A stretch of 34,600 nucleotides of DNA from an uncultured Methylococcaceae bacterium (GTDB lineage Bacteria; Pseudomonadota; Gammaproteobacteria; Methylococcales; Methylomonadaceae). The stretch lies in the NCBI GenBank assembly GCA_903863905.1, contig CAIPDT010000116.1, forward strand, positions 1 to 34,600. Reading direction: 5' to 3'. Position numbers and translations under genes: made by a program. Positions 15,977-30,235 of the stretch are shown piece after piece; positions within the stretch are counted from its first letter, which is position 1; each line of letters starts with the position of its first letter. The notes beneath the pieces were generated by a model, which made no database searches, was not told where the DNA came from, and saw nothing but the letters and a program-made list of their open reading frames with translations.

Positions 15977-16333
15977 ATGATTACATTAACAGAAAAAGCG
16001 GTTAACGCAGTTGGTCGCTTTATTGCCGGTTCAGAAACACCAACAGCCGGTTTACGAATCGAAGTGACCGATGGTGGATGCTCGGGTTACCAATATGGCT
16101 TAAAGCTTGAAGGTAGCCAAACTGAAGCAGATACCGTGATTGATTGCGGTGAAGTTAAAGTCTTTATTGACCCCGTTAGCTTGCCCATGCTGGACGGAAT
16201 GTCTATTGACTTTTTGGATAGCATTGAAGGCTCAGGCTTTAAATTTACCAATCCCAATGCCGCTAAAAGTTGTGCCTGTGGCACTTCATTTAATACCAAT
16301 TCCGAAGGAACTGGGTCAAAAACCTGTTCTTAA
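15977..16333 (+). CDS. iscA: Nif-type IscA / HesB Fe-S cluster protein
   Basis: This 118-residue A-type iron-sulfur carrier has the three invariant cysteines: C35 in DGGCSGYQY, and C99 and C101 in SCACGTSF. Those residues bind iron or a cluster passed to nitrogenase and other clients. The C-terminal tail after residue 106 is slightly longer than in housekeeping IscA and carries an extra cysteine (C117). AGGAG lies 8-12 nt before the ATG. It is the first gene after the sigma-54 promoter and sits 29 bp before nifU, the same arrangement as the nif-specific iscA of Azotobacter. The symbol denotes the nif-linked paralogue. Confidence 0.93.
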
Positions 16334-16362
16334 CCCCTATACCCAAACCCGAGGATAACGTC

Positions 16363-17268
16363 ATGTGGGACTATTCAGATAAAGTAAAAGAACATTTTTT
16401 TAACCCTAAAAATGCGGGTGCTGTGGCTGAAGCAAACGCCACCGGCGAAGTCGGCTCTATTAGTTGCGGTGATGCCTTAAGACTGACACTTAAGGTGGAC
16501 GATGATACCGAAGTCATTCTTGAAGCGGGTTTCCAAACGTTTGGTTGTGGCTCTGCGATTGCCTCCTCTTCTGTATTAACAGAAATGATTATCGGCATGA
16601 CCATTGATGACGCCTTAAAAGTGACGAACCAAGATATCGCGGCACAACTTGAAGGCTTACCCCCTGAAAAAATGCACTGCTCTGTCATGGGTCGTGAGGC
16701 CTTACAAGCAGCGATTGCTAATTATCGTGGTGAAGTTTGGAAAGATGACCACGAAGAAGGTGCTTTAATTTGTAAATGTTTTGCTATTGATGCCGTCATG
16801 ATTGAAGAAATGATCTGGGCCAATAAGTTACGCACCGTTGAGGATGTGACTAACTTTACTAAAGCCGGTGGCGGTTGTGCCGCTTGCCATGAAGATATTG
16901 AAGGCATTTTAGAAAAAGTCTTAGCAGAAAAAGGTGAAAAGTTTGATCCTGAGTCGGCCCCTGCCTCTAAATCTGAACCCATCGCCGCAGTTAAAGGCCC
17001 TTTAACTAACTTGCAACGCATTAAGAAAATTGAAGAAGTCTTAGAATCGCTAAGACCTGCCTTAATGGCTGACGGCGGCGACGTTGAGTTGGTTGAAGTA
17101 TTGGGCAATACCGCGTATGTAAAAATGACTGGCGCATGTAACGGTTGTCAAATGGCGGCGATGACTATTGCGGGCATTCAACAACGCTTAATGGAAGTGT
17201 TGGGTGAATTTATTAAAGTGGTTCCAGCGACTGAAATGGCTAAGTTGACCAATATTGAGGTGGCATAA
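16363..17268 (+). CDS. nifU: NifU Fe-S cluster scaffold
   Basis: This 301-residue three-domain scaffold assembles Fe-S clusters for nitrogenase from sulfur delivered by NifS. The IscU-like N-domain has C35, C62 and C106; the central ferredoxin-like domain has C137, C139, C172 and C175 (CKCF ... [10 protein letters not shown]); the C-terminal Nfu domain has C259 and C262 in GACNGCQMA. Every expected cysteine is present, and the first seven fall at the numbering I recall for Azotobacter NifU. GAGGA precedes the ATG. The stop and the nifS start overlap by one base (TAATG), so translation of the pair is coupled. It acts in the cytoplasm. Confidence 0.97.
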
Positions 17269-18476
17269 TGGCTGACATCTATTTAGACAACAATGCAACC
17301 ACTAAGGTTGACCATGAAGTTGTTGATGTCATGATCCCTTATTTTTTAGAACAATACGGCAACCCCTCGTCTATCCATAAATTTGCGGATGGCGTTGCTA
17401 GAGGCCTTAAACAAGCTCGTCAACAAGTCCAAGCACTGATTGGTTGTGAACACGACTCTGAGATTATTTTTACTTCTTGTGGGACTGAATCAAATTCAAC
17501 AGCAATTCTATCCGCCATTAAAGCTCAACCCAACAAGAAAGAAATTATCACTACGACGGTTGAGCATCCCGCTATTTTAAGTTTATGTGAACATCTTGAA
17601 AAAGAAGGTTACACCATTCATAGAATGCCTGTGGATAAAGCCGGTCGGTTAAACTTAGAGTCTTATAAAAAACTATTGTCAGATCAAGTTGCTGTTGTGT
17701 CAGTGATGTGGGCCAACAATGAAACCGGCACGATCTTTCCTGTCGCAGAAATGGCCGAACTAGCTAACGCAGCAGGCGTGATGTTTCATACCGACGCGGT
17801 ACAAGCCGTTGGTAAGATTCCCATGATGCTACAAGATACCAAAATTGATATGTTGTCGTTGTCTGGTCATAAATTACATGCACCTAAAGGCATCGGCGTT
17901 TTATATCTTCGTCGAGGCACACGTTACAGACCATTATTACGCGGTGGTCATCAAGAACGCGGTCGAAGAGCGGGTACTGAAAACTCAGCATCGATTGTTG
18001 GTCTGGGTAAAGCCTGTGAACTGGCGCTTAACTATATCGAATACGAAAACACCACCGTTAAAGAGATGCGTGATCGCTTAGAAAAAGGCATCACTGAAAG
18101 TATTCCTCATTGTTTTGTTACCGGTGATCTATATAACCGTTTACCCAATACCACGGATATCGCTTTCGAATATATTGAAGGTGAATCAATTTTGATGCTC
18201 TTAAACAAAGCAGGTATTGCGGCCTCAAGTGGTTCGGCCTGTACCTCAGGCTCTTTAGAACCTTCTCATGTGATGAGAGCGATGGACATTCCTTATACAG
18301 CGGCACACGGTACGATTCGCTTCTCTTTCTCGCGTTATAACACCATGGCAGAAGTGGATGCTGTCTTAGAAGTGATGCCAAATATTGTGGCAACCTTACG
18401 TAAATTATCACCGTATTGGGACGGTAATGGCCCCGTCGCAAACCCTGAACAAGCGTTTGCACCCACTTATTCTTAA
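17268..18476 (+). CDS. nifS: NifS cysteine desulfurase
   Basis: This 402-residue PLP enzyme takes sulfur from cysteine to give alanine and a persulfide that feeds NifU. The PLP lysine is K202 in SGHKLHAPKG and the catalytic cysteine is C325 in SSGSACTSGSLEPSHV; both numbers equal those known for Azotobacter NifS. TVEHPAIL (H100) is the conserved His over the cofactor. The length is typical. It overlaps nifU by one base and is followed after 12 bp by nifV, consistent with one operon from the sigma-54 promoter. CysE in the same operon should supply its substrate. Confidence 0.97.
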   Translation: MADIYLDNNATTKVDHEVVDVMIPYFLEQYGNPSSIHKFADGVARGLKQARQQVQALIGCEHDSEIIFTSCGTESNSTAILSAIKAQPNKKEIITTTVEHPAILSLCEHLEKEGYTIHRMPVDKAGRLNLESYKKLLSDQVAVVSVMWANNETGTIFPVAEMAELANAAGVMFHTDAVQAVGKIPMMLQDTKIDMLSLSGHKLHAPKGIGVLYLRRGTRYRPLLRGGHQERGRRAGTENSASIVGLGKACELALNYIEYENTTVKEMRDRLEKGITESIPHCFVTGDLYNRLPNTTDIAFEYIEGESILMLLNKAGIAASSGSACTSGSLEPSHVMRAMDIPYTAAHGTIRFSFSRYNTMAEVDAVLEVMPNIVATLRKLSPYWDGNGPVANPEQAFAPTYS

Positions 18477-18488
18477 CAGAAGACCGTG

Positions 18489-19613
18489 ATGAAAACTCAA
18501 GTCCGCCCTATTATTATTGACGACACCACGCTTAGGGATGGTGAACAATCTGCTGGAGTTGCTTTCTCTTTGTCAGAAAAACTGTCAATTGCCTCGCAAT
18601 TAGCGGACTTGGGGGTTCCCGAATTAGAAATTGGTATCCCAGCAATGGGAGCCATTGAACGTGAAGAAATTAAAGCAATCGCTGCACTTAATTTACCGTC
18701 CACACTGTTAGTGTGGTCTAGAATGCGTCGTGATGATTTAAAAAGTTGCTTAGGTCTTAATGTTCACAAAGTGGACCTTTCGATCTCTGCGTCTGATCAA
18801 CATATCCAACATAAATTAAAGCAGAGTCGGCAATGGGTGCTTAATACCATTAACACCTGCATTAGTGAAGCCCGAGATTTGGGCTTAAACGTGTGTATGG
18901 GAATGGAAGATGCCTCTCGTGCGGATATAGATTTTTTAATTCAAATGGCCGAAGCGGCTCAAAAATCTGGTGCAACTCGTATTCGTTTTGCAGATACGGT
19001 GGGCATCATGGAACCTTTTGGCGTCTTTGAAACGATTAAACGTTTAAGAGCGGCAACCGACCTAGAAATCGAAATGCATGCGCATGATGATTTAGGCTTG
19101 GCCACTGCTAACACCCTTGCGGCGGCAGTGGCAGGAGCCACCCACGTTAACACGACGGTTAATGGTTTGGGTGAACGTGCTGGCAATGCGGCTTTAGAAG
19201 AAGTGGTCGTTGGCTTAAAACAACTGTACGGTTTTGAAACCGGCGTTTCTTTGTACAACTTTCCGTTACTCTCTGAACAAGTCGCTACCGCGTCTGGCGA
19301 TGCCATTGGTAGTCGGAAGAGTCTTATTGGCAAGAATGTATTTAGTCATGAAGCCGGTATTCATGTCGATGGTCTTCTTAAAGATCCTTTTAATTATCAA
19401 GGTGTTGATCCTGCCATTGTAGGGCGCCGCCACCAACTTATATTGGGCAAGCATTCGGGAACTCAAGGTGTTATCCATGCGTATCAACAATTGGGCATTG
19501 TCGTTAACCGACTTCAAGCGCAGAAACTACTCACCCAAGTTAGGCAGTTTGTAAGTTTAACTAAAAGAACGCCTCAACCAGAAGAACTCAATTTATTTCA
19601 TCAAAACCTGTAA
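18489..19613 (+). CDS. nifV: NifV homocitrate synthase
   Basis: This 374-residue enzyme condenses acetyl-CoA with 2-oxoglutarate to make homocitrate, the organic ligand of FeMo-cofactor. The catalytic entry [14 protein letters not shown] is at about 11-24, and the metal-binding [15 protein letters not shown] supplies the conserved His pair. The family's second signature [15 protein letters not shown] follows, and [14 protein letters not shown] marks the C-terminal region. A GTG lies immediately before the ATG in frame; I take the ATG at 18489 as the start. It follows nifS closely and precedes a 48-codon gene. HMG-CoA-lyase-like relatives exist, but the nif context makes NifV secure. Confidence 0.95.
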
Positions 19614-19625
19614 GAGGATAACACT

Positions 19626-19772
19626 ATGAATGAGCAAACAGACCTTGAAGCCACTGAAGTAGATAGCAATAAGACATTAGAAATCCCTGATCAAGATGAT
19701 CGTTATCCGGGCACTTTTTTTAGAATCCCAGGGCGTCCCTCACTTGAAAATACCGCTTGGCAATTGAACTAA
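19626..19772 (+). CDS. 48-aa nif-operon small protein of unknown function
   Basis: AGAGGA (19613-19618) overlaps the nifV stop and lies 7 nt before the ATG, a strong start signal. The product is acidic in its first half (MNEQTDLEATEVDSNK, then DQDD) and ends in a distinctive RYPGTFFRIPGRPSLENTAW segment rich in Pro, Gly and aromatics, followed by QLN. It has no cysteine, membrane helix or known domain. It sits between nifV and cysE with no competing frame, so it is very likely expressed with the nif operon. I do not recognise the family; the structured C-terminal half suggests a binding peptide rather than an enzyme. Confidence 0.7.
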   Translation: MNEQTDLEATEVDSNKTLEIPDQDDRYPGTFFRIPGRPSLENTAWQLN

Positions 19773-19811
19773 GTAATACCCTAAAATTACCTACACTTAA
19801 CGGCAGCTAAA

Positions 19812-20603
19812 ATGGTTATAGTCATGTCAGATACTGTTAAATATTCCTTAGACACACCACTCAGCTTTTTCAAGCAGTGGCATGAAGACGTCTACTGTGT
19901 CTTTGGTAGAGATCCTGCTGCACATAATGTTTGGGAAGTTTTACTCACCTATTCGGGTGTTCATGCAGTTTTAATCCATCGTATTAGTCATCAGTTGTGG
20001 AAAGCGAATTGGAAACTATCGGCTCGCATTATATCAACAGTGGCTAAGGTGTTAACAAATGTTGAAATCCATCCGGGTGCCACGATTGGTCGCCGTTTAT
20101 TTATCGATCATGCACTGGGTGTAGTCATTGGAGAGACGACAGAAATTGGTAATGACGTCACTTTATATCATGGGGTGACCTTAGGCGGCACCACGTGGAA
20201 TAAAGAAAAACGTCATCCCACTCTCGGTCACAATGTCTTAGTCGGTTCGGGCGCTAAAATTCTCGGTGCGATTACCTTAGGTAATAATGTTCGGGTCGGT
20301 GCTAACTCGGTGGTTATTAAAGATGTTCCTCCTTGCTGTACGGTTGTGGGTATTCCTGGACGCATTATTCAGACCAAAGGCACGAAGATTCAAAACCGAC
20401 ATGGTATTGATCTTGACCATCATTTAATTCCCGATCCTGTCGGCAAAGCCATTTCATGTTTGATGGAGCGCATTGATGAACTTGAAGCGCGTCAAGCTCC
20501 AATGACTGACGCTGTCTCAGAAGAGTCTTGTGATAACTGTGACGCAGAAACTATCTGCACCCCCAAAAAAGATAGCTCAGTGAAACTGGCGGCGAGGCAT
20601 TAA
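19812..20603 (+). CDS. cysE: Serine O-acetyltransferase (CysE), nif-linked short form
   Basis: This enzyme makes O-acetylserine for cysteine synthesis, meeting the extra sulfur demand of NifS. It is 263 residues long with a short N-terminus, followed by left-handed beta-helix hexapeptides from about 84 to 184 ([36 protein letters not shown]). The catalytic D99-H100 pair lies in [13 protein letters not shown]. The tail beyond 190 is unusually long for this type and contains C240, C243 and C249 ([11 protein letters not shown]), which could bind a metal or act in redox control. The start ATG at 19812 has a weak site; an ATG four codons later is possible. Its stop overlaps the next gene by one base. 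Confidence 0.92.
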
Positions 20604-21109
20604 TGGATTTACTGGATTTCGAGGCACAAGGTCTCTATTTCGATCATCAAGAACTTCCAGAAGTTGAAAGCTTGATTGCTAAGGCCGCTGAAAATTATGC
20701 GGATGGAGAAGCAGAACTGCCCTTGTTAAGAGCCTATTTTTTAGCACCTCATTCATTAAATGTATTAGTCGCTTTAAACCGCTTCTATTATTACCAACAC
20801 CGACTGGAAGATGCCTTAGCAGCAACCCTTAAAGCTTTAGCGGTGATTAGACCGTTAGTTAATTTCCCTGAAGATTGGCGGGAGTTACAAGCCCATCATC
20901 TGAGCGAAACCCCGGCTAATTTATTAACTCAAGTAAGACTGTATTTGTTTACGTTAAAAGCGATTGGTTTTTTAAATATGCGCTTAGAGTTACTTGAAGT
21001 GAGTCAGAGTATTTTTGAAAAACTAGTGGAACTGGATAGCAAAGACCGCATCGGGGCTAAAGGTTTACTAGAGCTCGTCATTAAACGTCAAAATCACTTT
21101 GAAACTTAG
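20603..21109 (+). CDS. Helical TPR-like protein of the nif operon
   Basis: This 168-residue soluble protein is mostly alpha-helical, with helix pairs resembling tetratricopeptide repeats at about 40-72 (APHSLNVLVALNRFYYYQHR, then EDALAATLKALAV) and 122-160 (FLNMRLELLEVSQSIFEKLV, then DSKDRIGAKGLLEL). It has no cysteine and no catalytic motif that I can see. Its ATG overlaps the cysE stop by one base, so the two are coupled. I do not know a gene symbol. A protein-protein adaptor or chaperone in nitrogenase maturation is the natural inference from fold and operon, not from any direct evidence. Confidence 0.75.
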   Translation: MDLLDFEAQGLYFDHQELPEVESLIAKAAENYADGEAELPLLRAYFLAPHSLNVLVALNRFYYYQHRLEDALAATLKALAVIRPLVNFPEDWRELQAHHLSETPANLLTQVRLYLFTLKAIGFLNMRLELLEVSQSIFEKLVELDSKDRIGAKGLLELVIKRQNHFET

Positions 21110-21119
21110 GAGTATGAAC

Positions 21120-21230
21120 ATGTTAAAAGATAAAAACGCATCCTTATTAGGCTTAGTTAGCCTTACTTTATTCCTAATCTTGGTGATTTATTTGCTCACC
21201 CAAGATGTGACACTAGTCGGCCCCCTTTAA
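21120..21230 (+). CDS. 36-aa single-pass membrane microprotein in the nif operon
   Basis: AGGAG (21108-21112) overlaps the preceding stop codon and lies 7 nt before an ATG at 21120; another ATG at 21114 is too close to that site. The product starts MLKDKNASLLG, continues with one hydrophobic helix (LVSLTLFLILVIYLL) and ends TQDVTLVGPL. The charged start and polar tail predict an N-in single-pass inner-membrane peptide. It fills the gap between the TPR-like gene and nifW. I know no named family. A membrane anchor or partner for an electron-transfer or maturation component is possible. Confidence 0.6.
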   Translation: MLKDKNASLLGLVSLTLFLILVIYLLTQDVTLVGPL

Positions 21231-21250
21231 TCTAGCATTGGAGAATACTC

Positions 21251-21565
21251 ATGAGTTTTGAAGAAGAAATGGAAGAATTAGAATCCGCTGAAGACTTTTT
21301 ACAGTACTTTGAGCTGGATTATATTCAAAGTGTTGTCCACGTAAATCGTTTACATATCTTGCAACGCTTTCATAACTACTTGCAAAAAGCCAGCGATGAA
21401 ATGCCTGACTATGAACCTGCAAAACGCGCTATTTATCGGAAACTACTTGATCGGGCTTACCAAGATTTTGTGACGTCGGATGCTCAAACAGAAAAAGTGT
21501 TTAAGGTATTTTCAATGTCTGAACCTCAATCAGCCTTCGTCGCACTTGGCGATATTAAAGTATGA
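21251..21565 (+). CDS. nifW: NifW nitrogenase-stabilizing/protective protein
   Basis: This 104-residue cytoplasmic protein matches NifW: an acidic start (FEEEMEELESAEDFLQYFEL), then the conserved DYIQSVVHVNRLHILQRFHN and ARRL-like YRKLLDRAYQDFV region, with F-x-V-F near the end. NifW binds the MoFe protein and is linked to its protection from oxygen or its maturation. GGAG precedes the ATG. The end overlaps the nifZ ATG by 4 nt (ATGA), so the two are coupled, as in Azotobacter where nifW, nifZ and nifM are adjacent. Confidence 0.92.
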   Translation: MSFEEEMEELESAEDFLQYFELDYIQSVVHVNRLHILQRFHNYLQKASDEMPDYEPAKRAIYRKLLDRAYQDFVTSDAQTEKVFKVFSMSEPQSAFVALGDIKV

Positions 21566-22041
21566 AGCCCGAACGCTTTGACGAAGGTCGTTTTGAATAC
21601 GGTGAATCAGTTCGAGTCACCCGAAACGTCCGTAATGATGGCACCTATCCTGGCTTAGATGTGGGTGTTTTATTAATTCGCCGAGGCAGTGTAGGCAACG
21701 TCATTGAAGTGGGTACTTTTTTACAAGATCAAGTCATCTTTACGGTTCATTTTATAAACCATGGCCGAATGGTAGGCTGTCGTTTAGAAGAGCTAATAGG
21801 TTTTGAAGAACCTTGGAACCCAAGTCGTTTTGAATTTAGAGATCGGGTTATTTGTACCCTTGATTTAGGAGTCCAAGGTAATGTCATTGTTAAAAAAGGT
21901 GCCGAAGGAGAAGTTTACAAAGTCATTAGAGACAACGAGCTTATTCAGTACCACGTCGCTTTTGATGGCAGAACCTTACAGTTACCTGAAACAGCGCTTG
22001 CACCGGCACACCCTGAATCTTTTCATGAACCTGAGGCTTAA
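21562..22041 (+). CDS. nifZ: NifZ, two tandem NifZ domains
   Basis: NifZ helps form the second P-cluster of the MoFe protein. The first domain (about 10-75) is canonical: YGESVRVTRNVRNDGTYPG, then RRGSVGNVIEVGTFLQDQ and FTVHF. A second, more diverged copy follows at about 88-150 (FEFRDRVICTLDLGVQGNVI, KKGAEGEVYKV, YHVAFDG). The 159-residue length agrees with the longer NifZ proteins. It overlaps nifW by 4 nt and is followed directly by nifM. The window has another NifZ-like gene at 15497-15775 with a single domain. Confidence 0.95.
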   Translation: MKPERFDEGRFEYGESVRVTRNVRNDGTYPGLDVGVLLIRRGSVGNVIEVGTFLQDQVIFTVHFINHGRMVGCRLEELIGFEEPWNPSRFEFRDRVICTLDLGVQGNVIVKKGAEGEVYKVIRDNELIQYHVAFDGRTLQLPETALAPAHPESFHEPEA

Positions 22042-22042
22042 T

Positions 22043-22891
22043 ATGAACCCGCCTAAAACATCGGATTTTGTTGACCCTTATACCCTGTTAAGAACGTCTT
22101 TAGCTGTTTTTAAGAAAAAGCCATCGGATTTGCAAGAGGATCAGTTACAGCAAATTCGTCAACAAGCCTTTAATGAATTTGCGATCGAATCTCGTATTTT
22201 AAAATCACCTGAAGCGAGTTTGGTGGTTATTTCTGATCAGGAATTAGAAACATCCTATCAAGAAGTGTGTGATCGCTATACCGATGAAGACGCTTTTTTA
22301 ATTGATTTGAATAACAATCAGTTAAACCCAGAAACCCTTAAAGCGGCTCTTTATAGAGAATGCCGAGTCAATGTTATTATGGAATTGGTCGCGTCTCGCT
22401 CCCCTTCAATTAATGACGTTGAAATTGGTATTTATTACCACTTACATCCTGAACAATTTGCAAAACCCGAACTCAGAGAAGCCTGTCACTTATTTATTAG
22501 CATCAACCCAGACTACCCTGAAAACACCCGTGAAAATGCGTTAGCTAGAATACAAGAACTACGTACCAAACTACAAAAGAAACCCTATAAATTTGCTGAC
22601 TACGCTTTAAAACATTCAGAATGCCCGACTGCTTTACAAGGCGGCACCCTAGGCTTAGTGCCACGCGGAAAACTCTACCCCGAAATAGACGAGGTACTCT
22701 TTAGCCTTAAAACCGGTGAAATAAGTTCACCCGTTGAATCTGAAATTGGCTTTCATGTGGTGTTATGCAAAAAGATAGAAAGAGCCGAGACGCTCTCGTT
22801 GCAAAAAGCCACCCCTAAAATTCGTCAGTTTATGAGTCAACGGGCTCGACAAAAATGTCAACGGGCTTGGTTAGCCAACTTACCTAAGTGA
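22043..22891 (+). CDS. nifM: NifM peptidyl-prolyl isomerase
   Basis: NifM is needed to mature the nitrogenase Fe protein NifH. The 282-residue product has an N-terminal helical part and a parvulin-type PPIase domain at about 142-246 (ACHLFISINPDYP, FADYALKHSECPTALQGGTL, GLVPRGKLYPEIDEVLF, GFHVVLCKKI). I chose the ATG at 22043 because GAGG lies 6 nt upstream and it begins just after the nifZ stop; the frame is open further back inside nifZ, but that start would overlap it heavily. The short gap to clpX (15 bp) keeps it within the operon. Confidence 0.93.
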   Translation: MNPPKTSDFVDPYTLLRTSLAVFKKKPSDLQEDQLQQIRQQAFNEFAIESRILKSPEASLVVISDQELETSYQEVCDRYTDEDAFLIDLNNNQLNPETLKAALYRECRVNVIMELVASRSPSINDVEIGIYYHLHPEQFAKPELREACHLFISINPDYPENTRENALARIQELRTKLQKKPYKFADYALKHSECPTALQGGTLGLVPRGKLYPEIDEVLFSLKTGEISSPVESEIGFHVVLCKKIERAETLSLQKATPKIRQFMSQRARQKCQRAWLANLPK

Positions 22892-29212: not shown

Positions 29213-29260
29213 GACTAGACTCCATAAATGCCTTTCTAACTATTGAGTTCTTTATACAAA

Positions 29261-29302
29261 ACTGCGGCATTTGACCTATTCAACTGTGTCATATGCCGCA
29301 GT
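29261..29302. other. Imperfect 14-bp inverted repeat upstream of ihfB
   Basis: ACTGCGGCATTTGA (29261-29274) pairs with TCATATGCCGCAGT (29289-29302) with one mismatch across a 14-nt loop. TTTTT follows on the plus strand and TTTT on the minus strand, so it could terminate transcripts in either direction. On the minus strand it stands in or before the ihfB leader, where it could act as an attenuator. Confidence 0.65.
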
Positions 29303-29403
29303 TTTTACCTATAAATCTATCTACCCTATTCACTGAAGCGCTTTACAGCACCTTATAAACAAAGCAAACCCCAATATAAAGCACTTACCATGCCATTTTT
29401 AGC

Positions 29404-29555
29404 GGCATTTTGTCACGCGACAAAATGCCACATTTTCAAACCCTTAATGACACAGTATTCTATACGCAACTCTTGAATGCGCTTCCTTTTATAAAGGATT
29501 CAAGTTTTACCTTCCTTCCTCTCGATGCGGTCAATTTATTTGACCGCTTTTTTTT
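29404..29555 (+). ncRNA. Candidate structured small RNA or leader RNA
   Basis: Three hairpins in a row lie on the plus strand: a perfect 11-bp stem with a 4-nt loop (29404-29414 with 29419-29429), a bulged stem (CTTGAA 29472-29477 with TTCAAG 29499-29504, enclosing TCCTTT with AAAGGA), and an intrinsic terminator (29527-29555). No convincing open frame with a ribosome binding site fits inside. The terminator ends 17 bp before the protease gene, so this is either a separate small RNA or a regulated leader whose terminator controls that gene. The 5' end and promoter are not defined. Class unknown. Confidence 0.4.
29527..29555 (+). terminator. Strong Rho-independent terminator upstream of the protease gene
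   Basis: GCGGTCAA (29527-29534) pairs exactly with TTGACCGC (29540-29547) over a 5-nt loop, followed by eight T residues (29548-29555). No plus-strand protein gene precedes it, so it must end either a small RNA or the leader of the downstream gene. Confidence 0.9.
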
Positions 29556-29572
29556 GGATTCTCGGAAAAATC

Positions 29573-30235
29573 ATGAAACGAAACTATCCCGCCAATACTT
29601 CTAATATCAAGCTTAATCAAAGCCTAACTAAACAAATTGCCTATCACGAAGCCGGACATGCAGCGGCCATCTATTTAAATAACAAGAAAAAGAACTTACC
29701 ACCTATTTATTTCCAAATACGCATTAAAGAACTTAACTCACCTGATAATATAATTGAAGTTCAAACGCTTAAATCAGAATCTAGCATGGCGATGATTGAA
29801 GGTGGCAGACTCATTCAGAGCTTACCGTTAACTTTATTAGAAAGTGCTTGTTTCTACTCAGCAGATCAACTTGACGCATTTAAAACGGCCTTTGAAGCCG
29901 ATATTATCAATCTATTAGTTGGGCCTTTAGCCGAAGCTAAACAAGTAGCTTTATATAACCACTCTCGTTTTAACACTGAGAATATCACTTTAGAGACACT
30001 TCACACTTATGGTGGTAGTTCTGATCTAAAAACGGTCCATGAATACCTAAGTAGTTTTATTGCAGATAGGCACTTCTATAACGAAACACTCACTAAACTT
30101 TTTAGTGAGGCGCTTGATTTTATTAATACACCTTCACATTGGTGTGCTATTGAACGTTTAGCAACATATATCTTAAGTCACGATGATGACATCATCAGTT
30201 GTGAAGACGTCATCACGCTAATCGATACCCATTAA
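29573..30235 (+). CDS. Stand-alone M41-like (FtsH-type) zinc metalloprotease domain
   Basis: The 220-residue product has the zinc motif HEAGH at 25-29 (QIAYHEAGHAAAIYL) and a later EADIINLLVGPLAEA (108-122), which resembles the FtsH region that supplies the third zinc ligand. It has no AAA+ ATPase domain and no membrane helix, so it is only the peptidase half of FtsH. The middle (about 45-105) is an insert rich in polar residues. Upstream in-frame codons run through the terminator at 29527-29555, so I take the ATG at 29573. The ribosome binding site is weak (CGGAAAAA). It could be a soluble protease needing a partner unfoldase; its substrate is unknown. Confidence 0.7.
   Translation: MKRNYPANTSNIKLNQSLTKQIAYHEAGHAAAIYLNNKKKNLPPIYFQIRIKELNSPDNIIEVQTLKSESSMAMIEGGRLIQSLPLTLLESACFYSADQLDAFKTAFEADIINLLVGPLAEAKQVALYNHSRFNTENITLETLHTYGGSSDLKTVHEYLSSFIADRHFYNETLTKLFSEALDFINTPSHWCAIERLATYILSHDDDIISCEDVITLIDTH

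Follow-up and report, generated by a model that had tools for sequence, protein, structure and literature searches.

Results

The window analysed here, i.e. the whole 34,600-nucleotide stretch of contig CAIPDT010000116.1 from an uncultured Methylococcaceae bacterium (GCA_903863905.1), belongs to an assembly of 2.79 Mb that we compared with 34 further genomes of the same genus (35 in all). A stretch dense in inverted repeats lies between a divergent IHF-beta-like gene on its left and, on the plus strand, the gene for a 220-aa putative metalloprotease of the HEAGH (M41-like) type (29573..30235), homologs of which are found in 33 of the 35 genomes. The window also holds a run of nif-like genes at 15977-22891, which we take to be NifU/NifS/NifV-like genes and their neighbours; the labels 'phasin' and MmoX are, like the nif names, putative.

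All four inverted repeats that a preliminary description of this DNA had reported were recovered by a repeat search between 29258 and 29555, at 29258-29275/29288-29305 (18 nt, 94%), 29404-29414/29419-29429 (11 nt, 100%), 29472-29478/29498-29504 (7 nt, 100%; in the folding analysis the base of one longer hairpin) and 29527-29534/29540-29547 (8 nt, 100%). The GC stem and eight Ts described immediately before the protease start codon are likewise present, with the T run at 29548-29555 ending 17 nt from the ATG at 29573. The four repeats fall into three kinds of element: the first is a palindrome lying upstream, the second a DNA operator, and the last two are hairpins of a single RNA. A terminator scan detected the site at 29527-29555, and because 3 kb yielded 3 sites where 2.2 +/- 1.3 would be expected, the scan by itself is no evidence. 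An open reading frame spans the region (29410-29604, 64 aa, TTG start); we judge a protein-coding role unlikely from the many small insertions and deletions among relatives, which argue against a conserved protein here.

The upstream palindrome (29258-29305, no strand assigned) lies between the IHF-beta-like gene and the operator, promoter and RNA module, outside the predicted RNA. A co-linear counterpart (GTGTCATATGCC) of its right arm (GTGTCATATGCCGCAGTTTTT) is found at a similar place upstream of the module in three relatives (L012, L014, L021), similar sequence occurs at one gene junction in four others (L300-L303), and a full palindrome of this kind was refound only in L304 and L306. It may be a terminator or a binding site.

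A pattern search of loci yielded 29 non-identical copies of the module, 28 of which were kept; L022, which has the operator, was dropped as its RNA part could not be aligned. The operator unit consists of two abutting 15-bp boxes (GCGNCA-N3-TGYCRC) beside a -35/-10 promoter, all on the plus strand. Box 1 (GCGGCATTTTGTCAC, 29402..29416) has a mean information content of 1.56 bits over the 28 aligned loci and one mismatch to the RegR motif GNGRCRTTNNGNCGC, whereas box 2 (GCGACAAAATGCCAC, 29417..29431; 1.76 bits over the same loci) fits that motif exactly on its minus strand. Of the 29 aligned copies, most have the sequence ATGCCA (29390..29395) upstream of box 1, and the rsmA-linked copy L002 lacks it; it is possibly a further half-site. 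The -35 element TTTTCA (29433..29438) occurs in 25 of the 28 loci (mean 1.86 bits) and is followed, in the window copy after 17 nt, by the -10 element TATTCT (29456..29461; mean 1.45 bits), which has the form TAnnnT in 28/28. Information is low in the -35/-10 spacer (0.50 bits), the 5 nt after the -10 element (0.41 bits) and the terminator loop (0.33 bits), and the distance from operator start to RNA start is 65 nt (20 copies) or 66 nt (8 copies) in all 28 loci. In sequence terms, this conservation pattern is the footprint of a predicted promoter and short RNA gene. Since the central repeat (29404-29429) lies upstream of the -35 and -10 elements, its most plausible interpretation is a DNA operator; its conservation as two direct 15-bp boxes also led us to set aside an RNA hairpin. 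At up to two mismatches the tandem operator occurs in 31 of the 35 genomes, compared with none in every one of the 35 when the pattern is read backwards, and the only two such sites in the genome of the window both precede copies of the small RNA. The RNA has a predicted promoter of its own with a regulator-type box at a fixed distance, the arrangement looked for in a small RNA controlled by a two-component system.

The predicted transcript of about 89 nt (29467..29555, plus strand) scores 65.5 bits (E 5.4e-9 in the genome) with R1, a covariance model built from the 28 aligned copies, this copy being itself among those 28. It comprises a 5' stem-loop (29472..29504), a CU-rich linker that is unpaired in the fold and contains CCUUCCUUCCUCUC (29507..29526; mean 1.26 bits), a terminator stem-loop on which repeat search, terminator scan and folding agree (29527..29547), and the T8 tract (29548..29555), at which sequence and terminator scan place the predicted RNA 3' end. 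The fold of 29467-29555 has a free energy of -20.8 kcal/mol compared with -10.2 +/- 2.45 for shuffled sequences (z -4.3; none of 200 shuffles as low); nine relatives folded likewise gave z from -1.4 to -5.9, with z above -2 in 2 of the 10 folded copies.

The preliminary description had named covariation among relatives as a check on its reading, and covariation is what we found. Matches from 86 hand-chosen loci were realigned to give 103 rows and 77 distinct sequences; over the latter, 95.2% of cells are paired and 13 of 14 base pairs have two-sided compensatory changes (5/5 model pairs in the 5' stem-loop, 8/9 in the terminator stem). No shuffle out of 500 scored as high, and sliding the partners out of register lowered pairing to 30-45% of cells. 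Fitting the alignment to the structure of the model favours that structure; the two-sided changes and the contrast with slid partners are large despite this.

R1 matches (E <= 0.001) are found at 77 places in 32 of the 35 genomes, two of them in the genome of the window (that in the window, and a second that follows rsmA on contig C89). In a sample of the order, 144 of 251 genomes and 25 of 48 genera have matches, and all 144 belong to one family. Records titled Methylomonas koyamae and Methylobacter luteus are also among those with R1 matches. In tandem arrays, which range from two to four copies, the spacing is 170-180 nt. Whereas 29 of the 77 copies in the genus precede a same-strand protease match, the other 48 have none within 120 nt downstream. 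In nine fetched loci (L125, L126, L131, L132, L135, L136, L137, L147 and L148) the RNA follows rsmA, and the genes downstream of rsmA-linked copies vary. Parts of the intergenic stretch retain about 80-90% DNA identity in relatives, while the protease is about 40-55% identical.

A shorter form of the RNA lies upstream of a gene for a 225-aa protein, to which Pfam assigned no family, in divergent orientation to either an sMMO-type hydroxylase gene (L129, L133, L142) or a cytochrome gene pair (L127, L130, L134, L139); Pfam was run on the hydroxylase of L129 (which matches PF02332) and the cytochrome pair of L127 alone. Pairs of tandem operators flank the short form at L129:5707-5909, L127:5198-5401 and L133:4723-4939. 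The two elements also occur apart: R1-positive loci L149 and L150 have no operator at up to two mismatches, and at L140:4530-5002 and L141:5549-5997 the operator precedes a gene for a 109-aa protein with no R1 match, the L141 protein having a weak EexN-family match below the cut-off.

In the protease itself, HEAGH is invariant in 10 of 10 aligned proteins; the match of the 220-aa protein to Pfam M41 is weak and below the cut-off (E 0.013). Genomes of the genus have from none (G003, G015) to four places with a member of this family, and 30 of the 59 places have no R1 match. In 20 of the 29 linked copies, those in which the protease match begins at residue 1, it starts 13-21 positions past the end of the RNA match, a gap that leaves little room for a separate protease promoter, and read-through of the terminator into the protease gene is possible at the locus described here. 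On a protease tree of 54 rows, 3 of which have too little upstream sequence to score, the presence or absence of the operator requires 3 changes compared with 7.6 in shuffles, and operator and protease occur together in 43 of the 51 scorable rows; because many rows were fetched via the operator or the RNA, the tree shows clustering and the latter figure is not a frequency, and the label is too strict, in that at least one row scored as lacking the operator (L199) carries it.

The operator boxes resemble the motif of a redox response regulator, RegR, as quoted in the available text of PMC5506826: in 14 of the 28 loci at least one box fits with no mismatch, and in the other 14 with one, while the backwards-read control, an easy one, gives 8-10 mismatches. 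An exact scan for the tandem operator in a genome collection gave at least 119 stretches, and the 80 of these that were listed and used comprise, judged by record title, about 30 loci from Methylococcales methanotrophs, about 23 from Nitrosomonadales or near relatives, and a remainder from marine Gammaproteobacteria, six Alphaproteobacteria and others; two (L224, L228) resemble GC-rich repeats. Among these 80 loci, 13 have RegA or RegB homologs and in 11 the operator lies within about 250 bp of the start of a regB-like match. For six RegA/RegB-type proteins from five loci, and for RegA and RegB of the genome of the window, the best NCBIfam model is ActR/PrrA/RegA or ActS/PrrB/RegB, although all the proteins scored fall below the equivalog cut-offs (the window genome's RegA, for one, reaches 191 of the 250 bits required). 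This RegA (contig C79) is 58% identical to RegA of L206, and the response regulator of L206 has a further match to 1umq, a photosynthetic apparatus regulatory protein by name, which we take to be PrrA. The genome of the window encodes RegB and RegA homologs and carries boxes that fit the motif.

A single box (GCGACAATATGTCAC) precedes the regB-regA pair of this genome by about 65 nt, counted to the RegB match start, and one lies about 140-150 nt before that start in L282 and L283; none was found near regB in L281, L284 and L285 (3 of 6 genus loci). RegA matches (E <= 1e-45) occur in 32 of the 35 genomes. Three RNA-bearing genomes (G004, G005, G023) have neither RegA nor RegB at ortholog strength; all are fragmented assemblies, one of them rated 100% complete, and they may reflect assembly gaps or a different regulator. 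In G016 and G027, RegA is present with no R1 match. An earlier idea that the promoter belongs to a PEP-CTERM/PrsR system was dropped once the regB neighbours emerged. In Nitrosomonadales and marine Gammaproteobacteria the tandem operator precedes genes for TonB receptors, MoeB-like proteins and outer-membrane proteins (L151-L230, identified mostly by eye), and a wide regulon behind the operator is possible.

Discussion

The promoter and operator footprint, the RNA structure and the copies are established at the level of sequence comparison, and on this basis we conclude that 29402-29555 is a conserved, multicopy, predicted small RNA gene, a new family of a known kind. No Rfam 15 family reached its gathering score in the window, and a tRNA was the only match in 10 loci with relatives. 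Twelve Rfam candidates at E <= 5, including HrrF, RNA-OUT, LhrC and AniS, all fell far under their cut-offs; sub-threshold matches overlapping 29398-29574 scored 13-20 bits against cut-offs of 41-110. Titles in the literature on small RNAs together with RegA/RegB or in methanotrophs, for which journal coverage was incomplete, included none on this RNA. The layout, with a stem-loop, an unpaired linker and a terminator with a U-tract in a genome that encodes hfq, fits an Hfq-dependent small RNA acting in trans, and this RNA is probably Hfq-dependent.

The preliminary description had proposed either a small RNA or a leader with a riboswitch or attenuator. Its small RNA is well supported, in comparative terms, by the promoter footprint, the covariation, the tandem copies and the differing downstream genes. 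The riboswitch did not hold up: instead of a conserved aptamer before one class of gene there are two simple hairpins, and 48 of the 77 genus copies lack a protease match within 120 nt. As only 29 precede the HEAGH gene and others lie after rsmA, often in tandem, or beside the 225-aa gene, a multicopy small RNA is the better reading. The same facts bear on a leader that acts only in cis, in which the terminator would be an attenuator of the HEAGH gene and no RNA would act in trans. Such a leader would account for the 29 copies just upstream of a same-strand protease match and for the way in which the operator tracks the protease in several branches of the tree (43/51 scorable rows; 3 versus 7.6 changes), but it leaves without a role the copies with no protease nearby and those after rsmA with their varying downstream genes, and fits poorly with the 30 of 59 protease places without an R1 match; we consider it quite improbable. 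Several palindromes and several copies per genome are also what a dispersed palindromic DNA repeat (REP- or MITE-like) with no RNA function would produce. However, compensatory changes in both RNA stems, the TAnnnT element in 28/28 loci at fixed spacing and the recurrence of copies beside rsmA in nine fetched loci leave this explanation with hardly any likelihood.

That the small RNA gene is real but a different regulator, not RegA, binds its operator is unlikely, if less so than either of these. Such a regulator would explain the three genomes in which the RNA occurs and neither RegA nor RegB reaches ortholog strength, the published RegA motifs are degenerate in the available parts of PMC4263372 and PMC5506826 (ChIP-seq gave no strong PrrA consensus in the former; no RegA motif could be predicted in Acidithiobacillus in the latter), and a metal regulator would also suit the position of the operator before TonB-receptor genes elsewhere (two confirmed by Pfam, others by eye). 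Against this, 11 of the 80 listed operators adjoin a regB-like gene, the boxes fit the RegR motif and a single box lies near the regB of the same genome. These observations support RegA indirectly as the protein that binds the tandem boxes, and the RNA gene is probably under RegB/RegA control.

Combining these data, we suggest a model for the small RNA gene at 29402-29555 that, taken as a whole, we hold to be likely. A response regulator of the RegA/PrrA/RoxR type would bind the two tandem boxes and switch on the sigma-70-type promoter just downstream of them once the RegB kinase detects that the cell is reduced or short of oxygen; we infer that the RNA is expressed and that RegA activates rather than represses it. 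The resulting RNA of about 89 nt would end at the terminator and, together with Hfq, its unpaired CU-rich linker would pair with purine-rich ribosome-binding sites, lowering translation of the target mRNAs; the CU-rich first-hairpin loop of other copies may likewise pair with targets. At the locus described here some transcripts would pass the terminator and supply the HEAGH gene. Hfq binding, the targets and read-through are predictions of the model.

More tentatively, RegB/RegA could act largely through the multicopy RNA, in the manner of GacA acting via RsmY/RsmZ, and the RNA would then be the missing link to genes that depend on RegA and are unbound by it; it may also tie redox state to methane oxidation, a thought suggested by the presence of the same operator between the 225-aa gene and the sMMO-type hydroxylase gene in some relatives. 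We regard this extension as doubtful. If the model is correct, a small RNA found across much of a single family of aerobic methanotrophs is tied to a redox two-component system whose activity in Methylomonas was shown recently (PMC13274454, available text). The model offers a defined predicted transcript, promoter and operator for examination in cultured relatives, and a clear tandem RegA-type box in a field in which RegA motifs have been hard to define, as the available parts of PMC4263372 and PMC5506826 indicate.

One of the closest known systems is the regulon that RegB/RegA controls in Methylomonas sp. DH-1, a methanotroph of the Gammaproteobacteria that shares this two-component system. 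According to the available text of PMC13274454, RegB/RegA is active in this strain, deleting regA impairs growth on methanol, the feo promoter is bound by RegA as a reported direct target, and the tbdr and tonB promoters are RegA-dependent with no appreciable RegA binding and are probably affected indirectly. Given genes that are RegA-dependent yet unbound, a RegA-controlled small RNA would be one possible route to such indirect effects. The DH-1 study differs from ours in that a term search of its main text returned neither 'sRNA' nor 'small RNA' nor 'motif'. FnrS of E. coli, mentioned in the available text of PMC4263372, is similarly a small RNA under an oxygen/redox regulator; its regulator is FNR, and in the loci analysed here no Rfam family except a tRNA reached threshold. 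The sibling small RNAs of Neisseria, which we compared through Rfam alone, are likewise paralogous small RNAs in one genome. LhrC of Listeria monocytogenes (RF00616), a host from a different phylum, is by score a different family, the window reaching 17.8 bits with its model against a gathering score of 110. In the available text of PMC4132741, LhrC depends for its expression on a two-component system that is LisRK instead of RegB/RegA, and yet LhrC resembles the predicted RNA in having several copies (lhrC1-4 together at one locus, lhrC5 at another) and a CU-rich single-stranded stretch between stem-loops, which in LhrC is predicted to block the Shine-Dalgarno sequence.
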